This document shows, one piece after another, positions 44,186 to 50,648 of a DNA stretch of 50,863 nucleotides; positions within the stretch are counted from its first letter, which is position 1, and the number at the start of each line of letters is the position of its first letter. Below the pieces are notes generated by a model, which was given only the letters and a program-made list of their open reading frames with translations, was not told the origin of the DNA and searched no databases. The stretch is taken from contig JAUVDV010000034.1 in the NCBI GenBank assembly GCA_030595125.1, positions 1-50,863 on the forward strand. The letters run 5' to 3'. This DNA comes from Deltaproteobacteria bacterium. Lineage in GTDB: Bacteria > Myxococcota_A > Polyangia > JAAYKL01. The position numbers and the translations under genes are program-made.

Positions 44186-45655
44186 ATGGAAGTTCGAAGC
44201 TGGATGAGGCTGGCTTTTCTGGCGGCTACGCTGGTTCCCGTGGGCGCTGCGGCCCAGCGGGTAGAACGCTCCGGTCCGTGCGAGAACCCCGATCGTTACG
44301 AGGACTGGGGCGGCACTCCTGACCTCCTCATGTCCCGGGCTCTCGGGCTCAGCGCAAAAGAAGTGGACGCCATTTCGCGCAAGATGACTTCCCCTGACAG
44401 ATCCGAACGAGTGGCGGCCGCACTCGAACTCAAGAAGAACGCGCCCGGTTCGGAGCAGGCGTTGCGTCAGGCCCTCTGGAGCAATCATGGCGCGCGGAAT
44501 GCCCAGATACGCGAGTCGGTGAAGATGGCGCGCCGAAAGATGAAGAACGAGGATGCGGCATCGCAAGGAGGCCTGCTCGGAGCCTTGCTGGCGATGGATC
44601 CGAAAGATCAGAACTACGGCGAGGGGACGCGGGCGGCTATTCGGATCATGGGAATGCTGGTTTCTCTCAACGGTCTCGACACCATGGCGGGATACAAGGT
44701 GATTCTCGAGTTCTCGGGCAGGCACGCCGGGATCTTCAGGAAAGAGATCGGGAGAATGTTCAAGTCGAACGGCATGAAGGTAATCCCCGCGCTGGTATAC
44801 GGTCGTGGCAGCAAGGACAAGGAGCTGCACATGTTCTCGGTCAAGTGGGTTCGGGATATGGGCAATCCACGGTTCGGTGAGCAGATCGAGCAGATCGAGA
44901 ACCCGAGACGACTTGCCCAGCTTCTGGAGGCTTACGCATCGGTCAACGAACTCGATGCGGTGGAGATAACCCTCTCACTGGCGAATCACGAATCGGTCTT
45001 CGTGCGCAACGCAGCGCGCAAGTGTCTTGAGTATTATGGCAAGAACGTCAAGTGGTCGGCTCTTCGGGCCTTCGAGAATACTTTCGGCCATGAGGCGCCG
45101 GAGGGCACCGATGTCGAGTATTGGCTGGAGAAGTTGTACGAGCACTGGGACTCCGAGCGGGGGGCAGGCGCGATGGCTCTCTTCTCGGAGGGGCTTGGCG
45201 CGAAAGCCGAGGGCGATCTCGGGAAGATGGAGGATAGGTACAGGTTGATCCTGAGGGATGATCCGATGTTTATCCGCCGTCACGAGATGGCCGGCGGATT
45301 TCTCGATCTGGCGACCGCCCACGAGGAGGAGGGTCGCCTGAAAAAAGCGCGAGAGGCTTCCTTGATGGCTTTCCGGGTGGCCTCGCCGAACACGGACGGC
45401 AAGCGCAAGGCGAGGGCGAGGTTGGACTGGCTGGAGGCGGAGACCCTCAGAGCCGGCGGCGCCTTCGATGAGGAACTCTACCGACGGATCGCGCAGGAGG
45501 ATCCTGAAAACGAGGCTGCGCGCACGTGGGCCGAGGAATACTCGGAAACAGACGATGGGACAGGGCGGCTCATCGTCAAGGCCCTGGAGATATCACTCAT
45601 CCTTTTTCTCGGCGCTCTCTTGTTGTACCTCAGGCTTCGCAGACGGCGGCGCTGA
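44186..45655 (+). CDS. HEAT-like repeat protein with signal peptide and C-terminal membrane anchor
   Basis: The 489-residue product starts at ATG 44186; ATG 44204 is a close alternative. A signal peptide (LAFLAATLVPVGAAAQ) precedes a long helical region with HEAT-like character (RSERVAAALELKKNAPG, RNAQIRESVKMARRKM, HESVFVRNAARKCLEYYG) and a TPR-like segment (FLDLATAHEEEGRLKKAREASLMAF). A membrane segment (ALEISLILFLGALLLYL) and an Arg-rich cytoplasmic tail end the protein. A periplasmic helical domain on an inner-membrane anchor is expected. I do not recognise a specific family. Confidence 0.75.
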   Translation: MEVRSWMRLAFLAATLVPVGAAAQRVERSGPCENPDRYEDWGGTPDLLMSRALGLSAKEVDAISRKMTSPDRSERVAAALELKKNAPGSEQALRQALWSNHGARNAQIRESVKMARRKMKNEDAASQGGLLGALLAMDPKDQNYGEGTRAAIRIMGMLVSLNGLDTMAGYKVILEFSGRHAGIFRKEIGRMFKSNGMKVIPALVYGRGSKDKELHMFSVKWVRDMGNPRFGEQIEQIENPRRLAQLLEAYASVNELDAVEITLSLANHESVFVRNAARKCLEYYGKNVKWSALRAFENTFGHEAPEGTDVEYWLEKLYEHWDSERGAGAMALFSEGLGAKAEGDLGKMEDRYRLILRDDPMFIRRHEMAGGFLDLATAHEEEGRLKKAREASLMAFRVASPNTDGKRKARARLDWLEAETLRAGGAFDEELYRRIAQEDPENEAARTWAEEYSETDDGTGRLIVKALEISLILFLGALLLYLRLRRRRR

Positions 45656-45692: not shown

Positions 45693-46364
45693 CTAGCCGG
45701 CATTTTCTTCACAAGAGGAAGAAACCAACGCGCGAAGCTCTGCCACCAATTCGTGGACGTGCGTGCACGGGTTGGCGTTGTGAGGGGCGATCCCCTCATT
45801 CAGCTCGACCAGTCGCTGTGCATTTGCACAAGCCTGATCGGTCCTGTCTTTCAGTGTGGAGTACATGTCTGAAGCGTTTTTCTGATATGCCCGTTTGAGG
45901 TGTCTTGTCAGCTTCTGCTGGAAATCCGTTCGCATCATCGACGTGGTACGAAGCTCAAAATGGAGGAGGTACCACAGCTCGAAGGCCTCGTTCGACCACG
46001 CGGCGCCGTATCCAAGGCTCTCGGCTTTCGAGATGGCGTTGTCGAAATCGTCTGGGCGGAAGCTGTCGCGATCGAACACGACCCAGACCTTGTCCACGGT
46101 GCGTTCTTTCCGCTCCATGTTCTCCCTGATCTCGCGGGCTCGGTTTACGAGGCTCAACGTGTTCATCCCCTCGCCGTGGATTTCGACATTCACCGTTCCT
46201 TTCGGAAGGTCGTCACGGAATGCCTCGAAGTAGTTGGGTTCCGTCTTCTCCCCCTCGCAGACGATGAGGAAGTATGTTCTTTGTGGTGTCTTGCCGAATT
46301 TTCGCGGTCGGTTTATTGACGCCCAGGGCTTGTCCCTGTCGGAAGTTTTCAACGGCTTGCCCAT
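45693..46364 (-). CDS. rloB: RloB-like TOPRIM protein
   Basis: The 223-residue product is read from ATG 46364 (GGAGGG upstream); the longer open frame overlaps the ATPase gene. RloB-family features are clear: a basic N-terminus, YFLIVCEGEKTEPNYF with Glu37 and Glu39, and KVWVVFDRDSF with Asp98 and Asp100, then the conserved AWSNEAFELWYLLHF segment. These are the acidic motifs of a TOPRIM nuclease fold. It follows the ATPase by 5 nt. RloA/RloB pairs are restriction-linked genes first noted in Campylobacter, and related ATPase/TOPRIM pairs defend against phage. Activity here is inferred. Confidence 0.88.
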   Translation of the reverse strand: MGKPLKTSDRDKPWASINRPRKFGKTPQRTYFLIVCEGEKTEPNYFEAFRDDLPKGTVNVEIHGEGMNTLSLVNRAREIRENMERKERTVDKVWVVFDRDSFRPDDFDNAISKAESLGYGAAWSNEAFELWYLLHFELRTTSMMRTDFQQKLTRHLKRAYQKNASDMYSTLKDRTDQACANAQRLVELNEGIAPHNANPCTHVHELVAELRALVSSSCEENAG

Positions 46365-46369
46365 GAAGA

Positions 46370-47662
46370 TCAGCCCTCCATCAAGCGGTCGAGCGCATCC
46401 GTGCCGCCGAGGAACGGGATCGCTCCGAAGCGCCCTTGTATGTAGCCTTTTTCGATTTGGGTGTCCTTGCGGACACCCGCGAAATCCGAGAGGGGGTAGA
46501 GCGTGCTCGCTCCCCTGGCCGACTTCTCGACGAACCATATCTGGTCGCGGCGCAAGCCCCCGTTCGACAGGAGCCCCGTGTCGTGAGTGCAGAAGACGAG
46601 CTGTGCGTTGTTCTTGTTGATTTCCGGCGTGTGGAAAAGCCGAACTATAGAGCGCGTTAGCAAGGGGTGGAGCTTGGCCTCGAGCTCGTCGATGAAAACG
46701 GTGTACCCGTTCTGCAATGTGTCCAGGATCGGCCCCATCAGGTTGAAGTACTTCCTCGTCCCCTCCGACTCTTCCTTCATCAGGTTGAACGATACGCGAT
46801 CGACAATCTCATCACCATTGTACTTTGGATGCTCCATGAGAACGCGCATCTCGACGAGCTTGTCACCTTCCCCGTTTTTGACCTTGAGTGCCGGAATTTG
46901 TGACAGAACACCCGGCACATTGGGATCGAAATCGTGCTCTTCTACCCGAATGTTCTCGATGCCGAGATCAGCAGATCGGCATGCCTCAAGGAGTACCTTC
47001 CCCGCCTTGCTGGAGGTCGCCAATTCCGCGGAGAAGCTCAGGAAATCATTGTCGCGCGTTCCCCAGATTGGGCGTATTCGATTCATGAGCTCGAGAACTC
47101 GGCGCGCGGTCGGCTCGTTCCACTGGGCGGCCACCGAGAGGAAAAGGGCGTTCTCTAGCGTGCGCTTCTTGAGATCTTTTGCGTCGGTGATGCCACCGGG
47201 CTTCACGTCGATTTCATCGCCTTCTCGCAGGAAGAGCGTCCTTTCACGAGAGTGTTTCTTCGACAGGTTGGTTGCGAACAACCACTCCGAGCGTACGGTG
47301 TGAAAATCGACTTCGAAGCCGTAACGGAAGCGCTCGGTTCCATCGAGGAGTGTCACTTGAAAGCGGCTCGGTGCTTTCTCTGTCGCTGTGTCCAGTTTGA
47401 ACGGTGTGATGGAAATTGGATCTCCTGCTTGCCTAGAGGCAGAATTTCGAACGAAACTCGTCATGAATGCGACGGCATAGACGAGGTTTGTCTTGCCACC
47501 GGCGTTGGGCCCGTAGATCCCCGCGGACTTGAGGAAACGCTGATTCGCGACTGTGAACACATTCTCCTCTTCCCGCTCTTTGTATGCCTTAACTGCTTCC
47601 AGCGTCAGCTTGGTGGTGTCGCGGAATGAACGAAAATTAGAGAATTCAAAATCTATCAACAT
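46370..47662 (-). CDS. rloA: RloA-like AAA/ABC-type ATPase
   Basis: The 430-residue product is read from ATG 47662 (AAGGGG upstream), where the SMC-like start MLIDFEFSNFRSFRD begins. Walker A is GPNAGGKTN (residues 51-59). Walker B is FIDELEAKLHP, followed by QLVFCTHDTGLLSN as H-switch. The segment DQIWFVEKSARGASTLYPLSDF is typical of AAA_15/RloA proteins. It probably forms a complex with RloB that senses infection and activates the TOPRIM effector (inference from family). It differs clearly from the ATPase at 14064, so the two cassettes are not recent copies. Confidence 0.9.
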   Translation of the reverse strand: MLIDFEFSNFRSFRDTTKLTLEAVKAYKEREEENVFTVANQRFLKSAGIYGPNAGGKTNLVYAVAFMTSFVRNSASRQAGDPISITPFKLDTATEKAPSRFQVTLLDGTERFRYGFEVDFHTVRSEWLFATNLSKKHSRERTLFLREGDEIDVKPGGITDAKDLKKRTLENALFLSVAAQWNEPTARRVLELMNRIRPIWGTRDNDFLSFSAELATSSKAGKVLLEACRSADLGIENIRVEEHDFDPNVPGVLSQIPALKVKNGEGDKLVEMRVLMEHPKYNGDEIVDRVSFNLMKEESEGTRKYFNLMGPILDTLQNGYTVFIDELEAKLHPLLTRSIVRLFHTPEINKNNAQLVFCTHDTGLLSNGGLRRDQIWFVEKSARGASTLYPLSDFAGVRKDTQIEKGYIQGRFGAIPFLGGTDALDRLMEG

Positions 47663-47804
47663 GTTTTCGCCCCTTTTAGTGGTGGCCACATGGGTATAAT
47701 GCCGAAAATTTGCAAAAAAAACACAAAAAAGAGGTTCTTATGGGCGATATTGGGTTTTTTATTGAGAAATATGGTTTGGAACTGTTTCCGTATCAGAGAA
47801 AATG

Positions 47805-47855
47805 CCCCCAATAATTACCCCCCAATAATGACCCCCAATAATGACCCAATAATGA
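47805..47855 (+). repeat. Four-unit CCCCCAATAATGA tandem repeat
   Basis: Units of 13, 14, 13 and 11 bp share the core CCCAATAAT. The array lies in the 413-bp gap between the divergent rloA and the unknown gene at 48076. The rest of the gap holds poly-A runs and the promoter and hairpin listed below. Confidence 0.8.
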
Positions 47856-47993
47856 CTCCCACTCCTTAGCCCCCGTGAACAATCGGTCTCGTCGCCCCAC
47901 GAAGAAACAAACTGGCACTTTTGGGTGACGTATCCAGCCATAGCGGACTAATTCAGCCGCATGAAACGGCAAAAGGCACGTAATAACAATAAG

Positions 47994-48075: not shown

Positions 48076-48858
48076 ATGACACTTTCACCAGCGCTGGAAA
48101 CACTTATCGAAAATGAGATGACGGCTCTCACAAAGGACGATTATCTTCGCCCTGGCATGGGCTTCGACAAACATGTCGGCGAATTCAGCAATCTGCTAGC
48201 GCAGGAGAAAGAGGACGAAACGCCCCTTGCGCAGGCCGGTTTCGATACATCCCTGATGGCCAAATTCTACGGTTACCTGGAGATGATCACCAGGACGCAC
48301 GGCGAACGTGTCGTTGCGGAGTCCGAAAAGAAAGAATCCCGCAAGGAGTTCAATCTGAAGATGCCCGAGGCCAAAAAAGACAAGAAGGTGCTCATGGCGG
48401 TGGGTCGCTACATTGTCAAACGCACGGACAGCAAAGAAGACAAGAAGGTCTACGACATGGTCGCCGACGGCTACGGCGACGTGGACACCCTCACCGACAT
48501 CGTCACCCTGGCCGCCTTAATGAGGAAGCACAAAAGCCTGGCGCAGGAGGTCAGGCCCGGCGGCAAGACCGTCGACGACAGTTACCTCGACGATGTGGAG
48601 CAAAAAGCGCTCGACCTGATCAAACTGCGAGGCGAAGCCATCACCTCCGATGACGACTCCAAAGAGCAAGTCGACCGCCAAAACCGCCTCATGACCCTCA
48701 CCATCAACGCCCAGCGCGAAATCAAACTCTTCGCCGAAATGGCCTTCTACGACGACACCGACCGCTACGACCAGTTCTACGCCAGTGATGAGATGCGAAA
48801 GCAGAACAAGAACCGAGACGCCGAGACCCAGCCGGCGACGGAAACCCCCACTTCCTGA
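48076..48858 (+). CDS. Unknown soluble helical protein between two repeat arrays
   Basis: The 260-residue product starts at ATG 48076 with AAGGGGGAG at good spacing. It is highly charged and mostly helical, with no signal peptide or membrane segment, so cytoplasmic. Visible features are an N-terminal helix (TLSPALETLIENEMTALTKDDYLRPGMGF), a Lys/Glu-rich middle (about 85-110), a helix-rich core with ALMRKHKSLAQEV, and a polar C-terminal tail ending TQPATETPTS. I do not recognise the family. It is flanked upstream by 13-bp repeats and downstream by a nine-unit 21/22-bp repeat array. That layout recalls DNA-binding proteins with their own sites, but no helix-turn-helix is evident. Confidence 0.75.
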   Translation: MTLSPALETLIENEMTALTKDDYLRPGMGFDKHVGEFSNLLAQEKEDETPLAQAGFDTSLMAKFYGYLEMITRTHGERVVAESEKKESRKEFNLKMPEAKKDKKVLMAVGRYIVKRTDSKEDKKVYDMVADGYGDVDTLTDIVTLAALMRKHKSLAQEVRPGGKTVDDSYLDDVEQKALDLIKLRGEAITSDDDSKEQVDRQNRLMTLTINAQREIKLFAEMAFYDDTDRYDQFYASDEMRKQNKNRDAETQPATETPTS

Positions 48859-48963
48859 GAGTCGACCTCCCAGATCACCGCCCTGACAATGCCCCGCAAG
48901 ATACCGGCAACGCAGTTTTGCCCACTGACAACGTGGTTTTGCCTACGGACACGGCAAAAATTG

Positions 48964-49151
48964 ATACAGACATCGCCTCACAGGGGTACAGACAAAGCCT
49001 CACAGTGGTACAGACACGCCCGTTTGGGGTACGGACAAGGCCTCACAGAGGTACAAACACGCCCGTTTTGGCTACAGACAAGGCCTCACAGAGGTACAAA
49101 CACACCCATTTGGGGTACAGACATGCCCGTTTGGGGTACAAACACGCCCAG
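48964..49151 (+). repeat. Iteron-like array of nine 21/22-bp units
   Basis: Each unit begins GTACAGACA or a close variant. Type A (22 bp) continues AGGCCTCACAGAG and type B (21 bp) continues CGCCCGTTTGGG. The order is A A B A B A B B and a partial B, at 48964, 48986, 49008, 49029, 49051, 49072, 49094, 49115 and 49136. The A+B period is 43 bp, not a multiple of three, which argues against coding. The mean spacing of about 21.5 bp is two helical turns. The gap 48859-49253 holds no convincing gene. Confidence 0.88.
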
Positions 49152-49253
49152 AAAATTCCGCGTAAACACCTGTTATTCAATGGTTATCAGCAGAACGCTC
49201 AATAATAATGCAAAAATAATGTGTCTGGCACCCCTGCGAGGGCGTGAAATGCC

Positions 49254-50648
49254 TTAGGGGCAGTTCCCCGGAACGGGCGTGCAAGTGTCGTCGAGGTTGT
49301 CGTGGACATCTATCGAAGTGGGTCCGCTGGTGAGCTGGTCCAGCACATCGCATACCTCGCAGTCGGGCAGGATAGTGTTGCTGTAGATATATAACCATAC
49401 GCCCACCGAGGTGAGGACACTAAGGCCATCGAGGTTGGTAAGGCTGTTGTTCCCGGAGATTGACAAGTCCACACCCACCGAGGTTATGCCGCTGAGCTCG
49501 TCCAGGTCTGTGAGGGTGTCGTTGTAGGAGATCCTCAAGTCCCCGCCCACTGAGGTGAGAGCACTTAGCCCGTCCAGGTTGGTGAGGGCAGTGTTCCCGG
49601 AGATCGACAAGTCCCCGGCCACCGAAGTGAGGGCGCTCAACCCACCTACGTCGGCGAGGGAATCGTTGCTAATGATCTCAAAGCCCCCCCCCACCGAGGT
49701 GATGCCGCTCAGCCCATCCAGATTGGTGAGGGCGGCGTTCTCGGAGATTGCTACGTCAAAGGCCACCGAGGTGATGCCGCTCAACCCGTAAAGGTTGGTG
49801 AGGGCGGCGTTCTCGGAGATTGCCACGTCAAAGGCCACCGAGGTGATGCTACTCAGCCCGTCCAGGTTGGTGAGGGCAGCATTTGCGTGGATGTGCAAGT
49901 CCTCGTCCACCGAGGTTATACCGCTCAGCCCGTCTAGGTCGGTGAGGGCGTTGTTGTGGACGATCCACAAGCCGCCCACTACTGAGGTGAGATTACTCAA
50001 CCCGTCCAGGTTCGTAAGTGAGACGTTGTTTTCGATAGACAAGTCCTCACCCACCGAAGTGATGGCGCTCAGACCGTCAAGGTCAGTGAGGGTGTCGTTA
50101 TCGACTATCCCCAAGATCCCATCCACCGAAGTGATGGCGCTCAGACCGTTCACGTTATTGAGGGCAGGGTTCGCGGTAATCCCCAGAACCCCGCCTACCG
50201 ATGAAAGGGCGTCAAGCCCGTCCAGGTTGGGGAGGACAGCGTTCTGGTAGATCAACAAGCCCCCGCTCACCGAGGTGAGGCAAATCAACTCGCTCAAGTC
50301 GGTGCACGAAGGGCACTGGACCAATAGGCTTCCTAAGATAGAGGTGTAACCAGCAAGGGTTGCAACGTCCGATTGCGTGCTAATGGAAAAATTGCCGCTG
50401 TACTCTCCTAGGGGACAATCAGTGTCTGTATCTGTATCTGTGTCCGTGTCGGTATCCGTATCGGTGTCGATGTCTGTATCTGTGTCAGTATCTGTGTCGG
50501 AGTCAGAGTCGGTGTCGGAATCCGTATCGCTGTCGGAATCGGAATCCGAGTCGGAATTCGAGTCACTCGATCCACCGCCGCCGCTATCGCCCGAGCACCC
50601 GCCGCAAACCATCACGGTCGCAAGCGCCACTAAAAGCAAGTACCTCAT
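49254..50648 (-). CDS. Leucine-rich-repeat lipoprotein, distant fifth paralogue
   Basis: The 464-residue product starts at ATG 50648. It has the plan of the tandem family at 22504-28407: signal peptide with lipobox VCGGC, a linker passing from Asp-Ser to Asp-Thr (about 28-75), the cap (CPLGEYSGNFSISTQSD ... CPSCTDLSELICL), about 12 units of 24 residues and the LPDCEVCDVLDQL...LDDTCTPVP end. Two neighbouring units (49737-49808 and 49809-49880) are nearly identical at DNA level with the same unusual SVAFDVAISEN sequence, showing a recent 72-bp duplication. It lies 21 kb from, and opposite in orientation to, its relatives. Confidence 0.88.
   Translation of the reverse strand: MRYLLLVALATVMVCGGCSGDSGGGGSSDSNSDSDSDSDSDTDSDTDSDSDTDTDTDTDIDTDTDTDTDTDTDTDTDCPLGEYSGNFSISTQSDVATLAGYTSILGSLLVQCPSCTDLSELICLTSVSGGLLIYQNAVLPNLDGLDALSSVGGVLGITANPALNNVNGLSAITSVDGILGIVDNDTLTDLDGLSAITSVGEDLSIENNVSLTNLDGLSNLTSVVGGLWIVHNNALTDLDGLSGITSVDEDLHIHANAALTNLDGLSSITSVAFDVAISENAALTNLYGLSGITSVAFDVAISENAALTNLDGLSGITSVGGGFEIISNDSLADVGGLSALTSVAGDLSISGNTALTNLDGLSALTSVGGDLRISYNDTLTDLDELSGITSVGVDLSISGNNSLTNLDGLSVLTSVGVWLYIYSNTILPDCEVCDVLDQLTSGPTSIDVHDNLDDTCTPVPGNCP
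50420..50568 (-). repeat. Asp-Thr/Asp-Ser-encoding hexanucleotide tract
   Basis: Encodes the linker of the fifth leucine-rich lipoprotein. Asp-Ser units lie near the lipobox and Asp-Thr units further in. Confidence 0.82.

Follow-up and report, generated by a model that had tools for sequence, protein, structure and literature searches.

A gene for an all-helical protein and an adjoining array of helically phased repeats in a deltaproteobacterial genome and among its relatives

Genes and repeats at the locus

The 48076 gene is located near the end of the window (the whole stretch of 50,863 nt that was analysed), and a tandem repeat array lies directly downstream of it; gene and array are together called the cassette below (Table 1). 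AAA_21-like genes such as the one adjoining this cassette also adjoin those at L092, L105, L136 and L298, and the (TD/SD)n lipoproteins form a large paralogous family in the genus, several members of which adjoin cassettes (L023, L074). At 47801–47861, ~215 bp before the start of the 48076 gene, CCCCCAATAATGAC is repeated in tandem (3–5 copies) with a period of 13–14 bp, which differs from that of the main array.

Table 1. Features of the window and arrays sampled elsewhere in the same genome
Feature	Position	Strand	Remarks
RloB and AAA_21 (RloA-like) ATPase genes, adjoining the cassette	45693–47689	-	
48076 gene, encoding the 260-aa all-helical protein (family uncharacterised)	48076–48858	+	13 full-length copies in genome
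Four degenerate units in 21-bp phase, leading into the main array	48880–48963	+	Weight matrix; TRF
Main array of nine units (core GTACAGACA; 3′ halves of two types)	48964–49157	+	Spacing 21/22
Lipoprotein genes with (TD/SD)n stretch and LRR-like repeats of 72 bp	49254–50648; also 22.3–28 kb	-	
Array, family B ORF	L244:4820–5100		
Array, family B ORF	L258:9300–9680		
Array, family C ORF	L238:1700–1940		
Array, ORF weakly C-like (E 0.017)	L251:6820–7180		
Long array of 41-bp period, no visible helical-protein gene	L272:13020–13520		

The nine units of the main array start at 48964, 48986, 49008, 49029, 49051, 49072, 49094, 49115 and 49136, with steps of 22, 22, 21, 22, 21, 22, 21 and 21. TRF gave a composite period of 43 bp (88% matches, score 226) and autocorrelation gave z = 13; as the initial annotation had stated, the period is not a multiple of three. 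The nine units that it had described as sharing one core are real, but the core is exactly GTACAGACA in just three of them, with a single change in the remaining six, and four further in-phase units had been missed. The alternation it had reported between two 3′ halves, CCTCACAG (L) and CCCGTTTGGG (R), holds in the middle of the array but not at its ends: the order is L L R L R L R R, the final unit being incomplete, and strict alternation is confined to 48986–49114, with two CCTCACAG units opening the array and CCCGTTTGGG units closing it.

When a weight matrix built from the nine main units was used, weaker units in 21-bp phase with the main array were detected at 48943, 48922, 48901 and 48880 (joint chance ~3e-9); their cores are GCCCTGACA, ATACCGGCA, CCACTGACA and CTACGGACA, and TRF also called 48908–48951, inside this degenerate block, with a period of 21. 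The array therefore begins 21 nt past the stop codon of the 48076 gene. These results confirmed that the repeat array is real and larger than first described. The motif GTACARACA, with 38 occurrences in the 5.39-Mb genome, is clustered at the window array alone; no second copy of the array region was found by blastn against the same genome, and the search for further GTACAGACA arrays that had been proposed returned only that of the window.

The encoded protein

The 260-aa protein had no Pfam or NCBIfam match and no significant PHROG match. AlphaFold2, with 67 relatives in the alignment, gave a confident, all-helical and elongated model (pLDDT 94.1, pTM 0.76). When the model was used for structural searches, the best Foldseek match had E 0.09, and VIA-align gave a best Z of 7.9 (7aal_A, rmsd 5.3, 158 aligned) and a Z of 7.6 to the S23-family structure 2rld_A (rmsd 3.6, 92 aligned), both inside the stated noise for helical bundles. 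The viral fold library gave no match to the model, PADLOC gave no match to the family above noise, and a sequence search of the PDB returned just computationally designed helical inhibitors (E ~1e-3), which were judged unspecific. Neither the model nor the fold searches revealed a helix-turn-helix or any other known DNA-binding fold. The window protein is acidic (pI 4.9, net charge -12); the median pI of its family, referred to as family A, is 5.4, and the C-terminal 40 residues alone are basic in the family. This tail is a possible DNA contact region.

Distribution of family A

Family A has 13 full-length members on different contigs of the window genome (5.4 Mb), plus one split copy. A phylum survey revealed members in 50 of 379 genomes, and a search for related loci yielded 80 in Bacteroidota (including Aquimarina, Sunxiuqinia, Maribellus, Prolixibacter and Reichenbachiella), Aminicenantes, Acidobacteriota/Holophagae and deltaproteobacterial MAGs. 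No relatives were found in 72,556 plasmid records (PLSDB), in phages or in viral contigs (IMG/VR).

Among the A4 members, 44 of 67 matched the NCBIfam model NF052641, “PQLLE family protein”, at E<0.01 (best 6e-12). The similarity is distant and runs across most of the model (L132 residues 48–223 against model positions 27–206), and protein size is similar. However, in single scans of seven relatives the best score was 29.9 bits, below the 80-bit cut-off, the model did not match the window protein, and membership of NF052641 was rejected. Clear 21-bp arrays were not seen alongside the PQLLE genes L223–L225, which were inspected by eye. NCBIfam states no function for this family.

Phased arrays beside relatives of the gene

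Periodicity was analyzed in 400 nt on each side of 144 family members, from which obvious duplicates had been removed, at lags 12 to 64. Downstream flanks reached z≥5 in 89 of 139 cases (maximum 4.55 in dinucleotide shuffles, n=139), and the best lag was 20–21 (38), 41–43 (29) or 62–64 (19) in 86 of those 89. Control segments reached z≥5 in 5 of 111 cases at 1.5–1.9 kb downstream and 11 of 121 at about 1.9–2.3 kb upstream, mostly at other lags. Upstream arrays exist in some lineages, 16 of the 26 significant upstream signals falling in the same lag classes. Under the strict threshold, 42 of the 144 members had no array. The array starts at a median of 66 nt past the stop of the gene. Within the window genome, each full-length member with flanks not truncated by the end of its contig is accompanied by an array or, failing that, by a similar but weaker signal; two of these signals lie upstream, and one of those and one downstream fall under z 5. 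The cores of these arrays are highly diverse (GCGCGGGAA, TCCGTATC, ATCGGA, GCGGCTT and GTCAGCTACAGCCTGATT). The initial annotation had linked the array to the gene upstream of it and had suggested a search for copies of that gene beside arrays. The linkage was borne out, with arrays adjoining the gene in most of ~140 relatives.

Over 60 arrays the pitch averaged 20.90 bp (sd 0.23, range 20.25–21.50), which corresponds to about two helical turns, although the chains allowed steps near multiples of 20.9 bp and the narrow spread is thus partly built in. The lag histogram, for which all lags from 12 to 64 were scanned, is the unbiased evidence for the pitch. The two-turn phasing that had been claimed for the cores therefore holds in the window and across relatives; spacing did not vary freely among the latter, and arrays were not found widely without the gene.

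The units are built on a 7-bp core with ~1.5 bits per position, which is conserved while the remainder of the unit decays, and a second, weaker conserved zone lies one helical turn from the core (p = 0.006 and 0.03 in two tests). A phased reverse-complement block was observed in 10 of 59 arrays (0 in shuffled sequence) and precedes the forward block in eight of those ten. As RNA, the arrays folded slightly better than shuffled sequence, with mean z of -1.5 and -1.3 on the two strands and no strand preference, and Rfam gave no match. The fixed pitch, the reverse-complement blocks and the strand-equal folding favour double-stranded DNA as the working form of the arrays, and the upstream arrays of some lineages disfavour a 3′UTR role. 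A perfect 7-bp repeat, GTTGATG, lies downstream of the gene at L187, hence 21 = 3 x 7; it is possibly a decayed or re-expanded array.

Joint inheritance and genomic context

Two duplicates in the window genome, C95 and C120, are 89% identical through gene and array; the similarity stops within about 15 nt past the last unit, and the duplication also takes in part of the upstream region. Across relatives, unit similarity tracks protein identity (Mantel r 0.41, 0/999 permutations), a signal that common descent may explain in part or alone. The gene flanking the window locus (44186–45655) is also present in G002, a genome of the same genus, where it precedes another cassette (core CCGTAGC) and a RAYT; at the equivalent position in the window lie RloB, RloA and the GTACAGACA cassette.

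All-against-all BLAST of neighbours revealed no conserved neighbour gene among relatives, and PADLOC found no enriched system among the neighbours, with RT models in 3 of 131. Genes for RAYT, Rpn and GIY-YIG proteins are occasional neighbours; RAYT was considered as a partner of the cassette and rejected, as it was found at few loci only. At L077, an array upstream of the gene is directly adjoined by an IstB-like gene that has IS21-style end repeats.

Arrays beside other helical proteins

An unbiased sample for arrays, consisting of 60 contig starts of the window genome (783 kb), yielded six further non-coding arrays of the two-turn type. None of the six has a recognisable family-A gene beside it. 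Four are located directly 3′ of other ORFs of about 240–290 aa that look helical as judged from sequence (families B and C, Table 1), and no partner is visible for those at L264 (at a contig end) and L272. In other genomes too, B and C homologs have arrays beside them (L290, L295, L297, L298). Profile comparison revealed no similarity among A, B and C, the B and C profiles holding four sequences only; families A and C are both acidic in composition. By proportion, a rough extrapolation, the window genome may hold ~40 arrays.

Discussion

Direct repeats of ~21 bp beside a gene, phased on one face of the helix, are also the layout of Rep-iteron origins, and in ParR-parC, ParB-parS and other centromere-like arrays a protein gene likewise lies beside an array of phased sites. 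The initial annotation had read the array in these terms. The array would then be where an integrated or former plasmid starts its replication or is partitioned. This was not supported and is strongly disfavoured, to the point of being very improbable: the genes are chromosomal, with many differing copies per genome, 13 of them full-length and on different contigs in this one; relatives are absent from plasmids, phages and viral contigs; and no Rep, ParA or relaxase lies beside the gene. The 48076 protein belongs to no Rep family of Pfam or NCBIfam. In contrast to partition systems, the cassette has no ATPase or NTPase partner and no plasmid, its protein is all-helical and acidic, and the operon holds no motor NTPase, the neighbours being RloA/RloB-type genes and an LRR lipoprotein. 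The arrays could also be ends of mobile elements (transposase sites, IS21- or Tn7-like), with the gene as cargo or accessory. Multiple copies that vary between sister species, the different cassette of G002 at the window locus, the IS21-style repeats touching the L077 array and the RAYT, Rpn and GIY-YIG genes sometimes nearby are consistent with this, but the array is one-sided and lacks a matching second end, no transposase is linked to it or recurs among its neighbours, none of which is conserved, the array region occurs just once in the genome, and the C95/C120 duplication, with its part of the upstream region, has no clean ends. We consider such an origin unlikely. RAYT-REP systems, too, pair a gene with family-specific repeats, and RAYT lies near some cassettes, but the cassette repeats are not palindromic REPs scattered over the genome, and the family proteins have no Y1_Tnp match and are thus not Y1 transposases.

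Type III toxin-antitoxin systems (ToxIN-like) resemble the cassette in having a lone protein gene with its own tandem array, the unit of which differs between copies. A co-transcribed array whose repeats bind or restrain the protein, as the repeat antitoxin does, would agree with the mostly 3′ position, near enough to the gene for co-transcription, and with the folding of the arrays. However, the folding gain is equal on both strands, ten arrays mix both unit orientations, some lineages have the array upstream, single-stranded RNA offers no obvious reason for the strict 20.9-bp pitch, and Rfam is without a match; type III systems need a 5′ repeat RNA and a ToxN-fold endoribonuclease, whereas here the model is all-helical, the array mostly 3′ and the PADLOC match absent. 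An RNA role is doubtful on these grounds. The 3′ position would equally suit an array bound by a host protein that merely insulates or terminates transcription after the gene, and a few arrays, L157 among them, have a palindromic centre plus T-run. One shared core would be expected for a host factor, whereas the core is private to each array; moreover, upstream arrays exist, a terminator precedes the array in L086, and terminator-like sites around the window array do not exceed chance level, which leaves this boundary role with a low probability. Neutral tandem duplications, intergenic by chance, are quite improbable: fast turnover of arrays and composite 41–43-bp units, which suggest slippage or unequal exchange, are compatible with them, but 60 arrays of unrelated sequence cluster around a pitch of 20.9 bp, periodic signals are far rarer in distant control segments, and the core is kept while the rest of the unit decays.

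Across relatives, the cassette has an architecture in which 6–16 sites lie beside the gene, usually 3′; the pitch is fixed, the core is lineage-specific, gene and array are inherited together, and mobile replicons lack it. We give about an even chance to the reading that this is a dispersed chromosomal cassette in which a helical-protein gene is paired with a dedicated array of double-stranded DNA, with its cores on one helix face and probably bound by the encoded protein itself. Binding of the neighbouring protein or its oligomer to its own array would be cooperative, along a single face of the double strand and in either unit orientation, and the nucleoprotein structure formed at its own locus may regulate, anchor or preserve that locus. 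The adjacency, joint inheritance and phasing point to this predicted binding; the calculated acidity of the protein (pI 4.9) and the absence of any recognised DNA-binding fold speak against it, and, given that like arrays follow proteins whose sequences show no detectable resemblance to family A, the protein-site link may be indirect. Turnover between sister species fits an accessory or selfish behaviour of the cassette.

More tentatively, and with somewhat less than an even chance, these loci may represent an unrecognised class of chromosomal element in several phyla, perhaps with ~40 per genome here, in which at least three sequence-unrelated families share the design of a helical protein and a private two-turn-phased array. 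A literature search, which reached few subscription journals, found no description of such arrays, and two-part units of gene and array seem undescribed so far. Should the protein bind its array, a single genome would contain at least a dozen orthogonal pairs of protein and site from one family, and comparison of the copies could reveal how recognition works; the cultured hosts Aquimarina, Sunxiuqinia and Prolixibacter make experiments feasible. If true, this reading would also account for a class of tandem repeats at which several draft assemblies appear to break.
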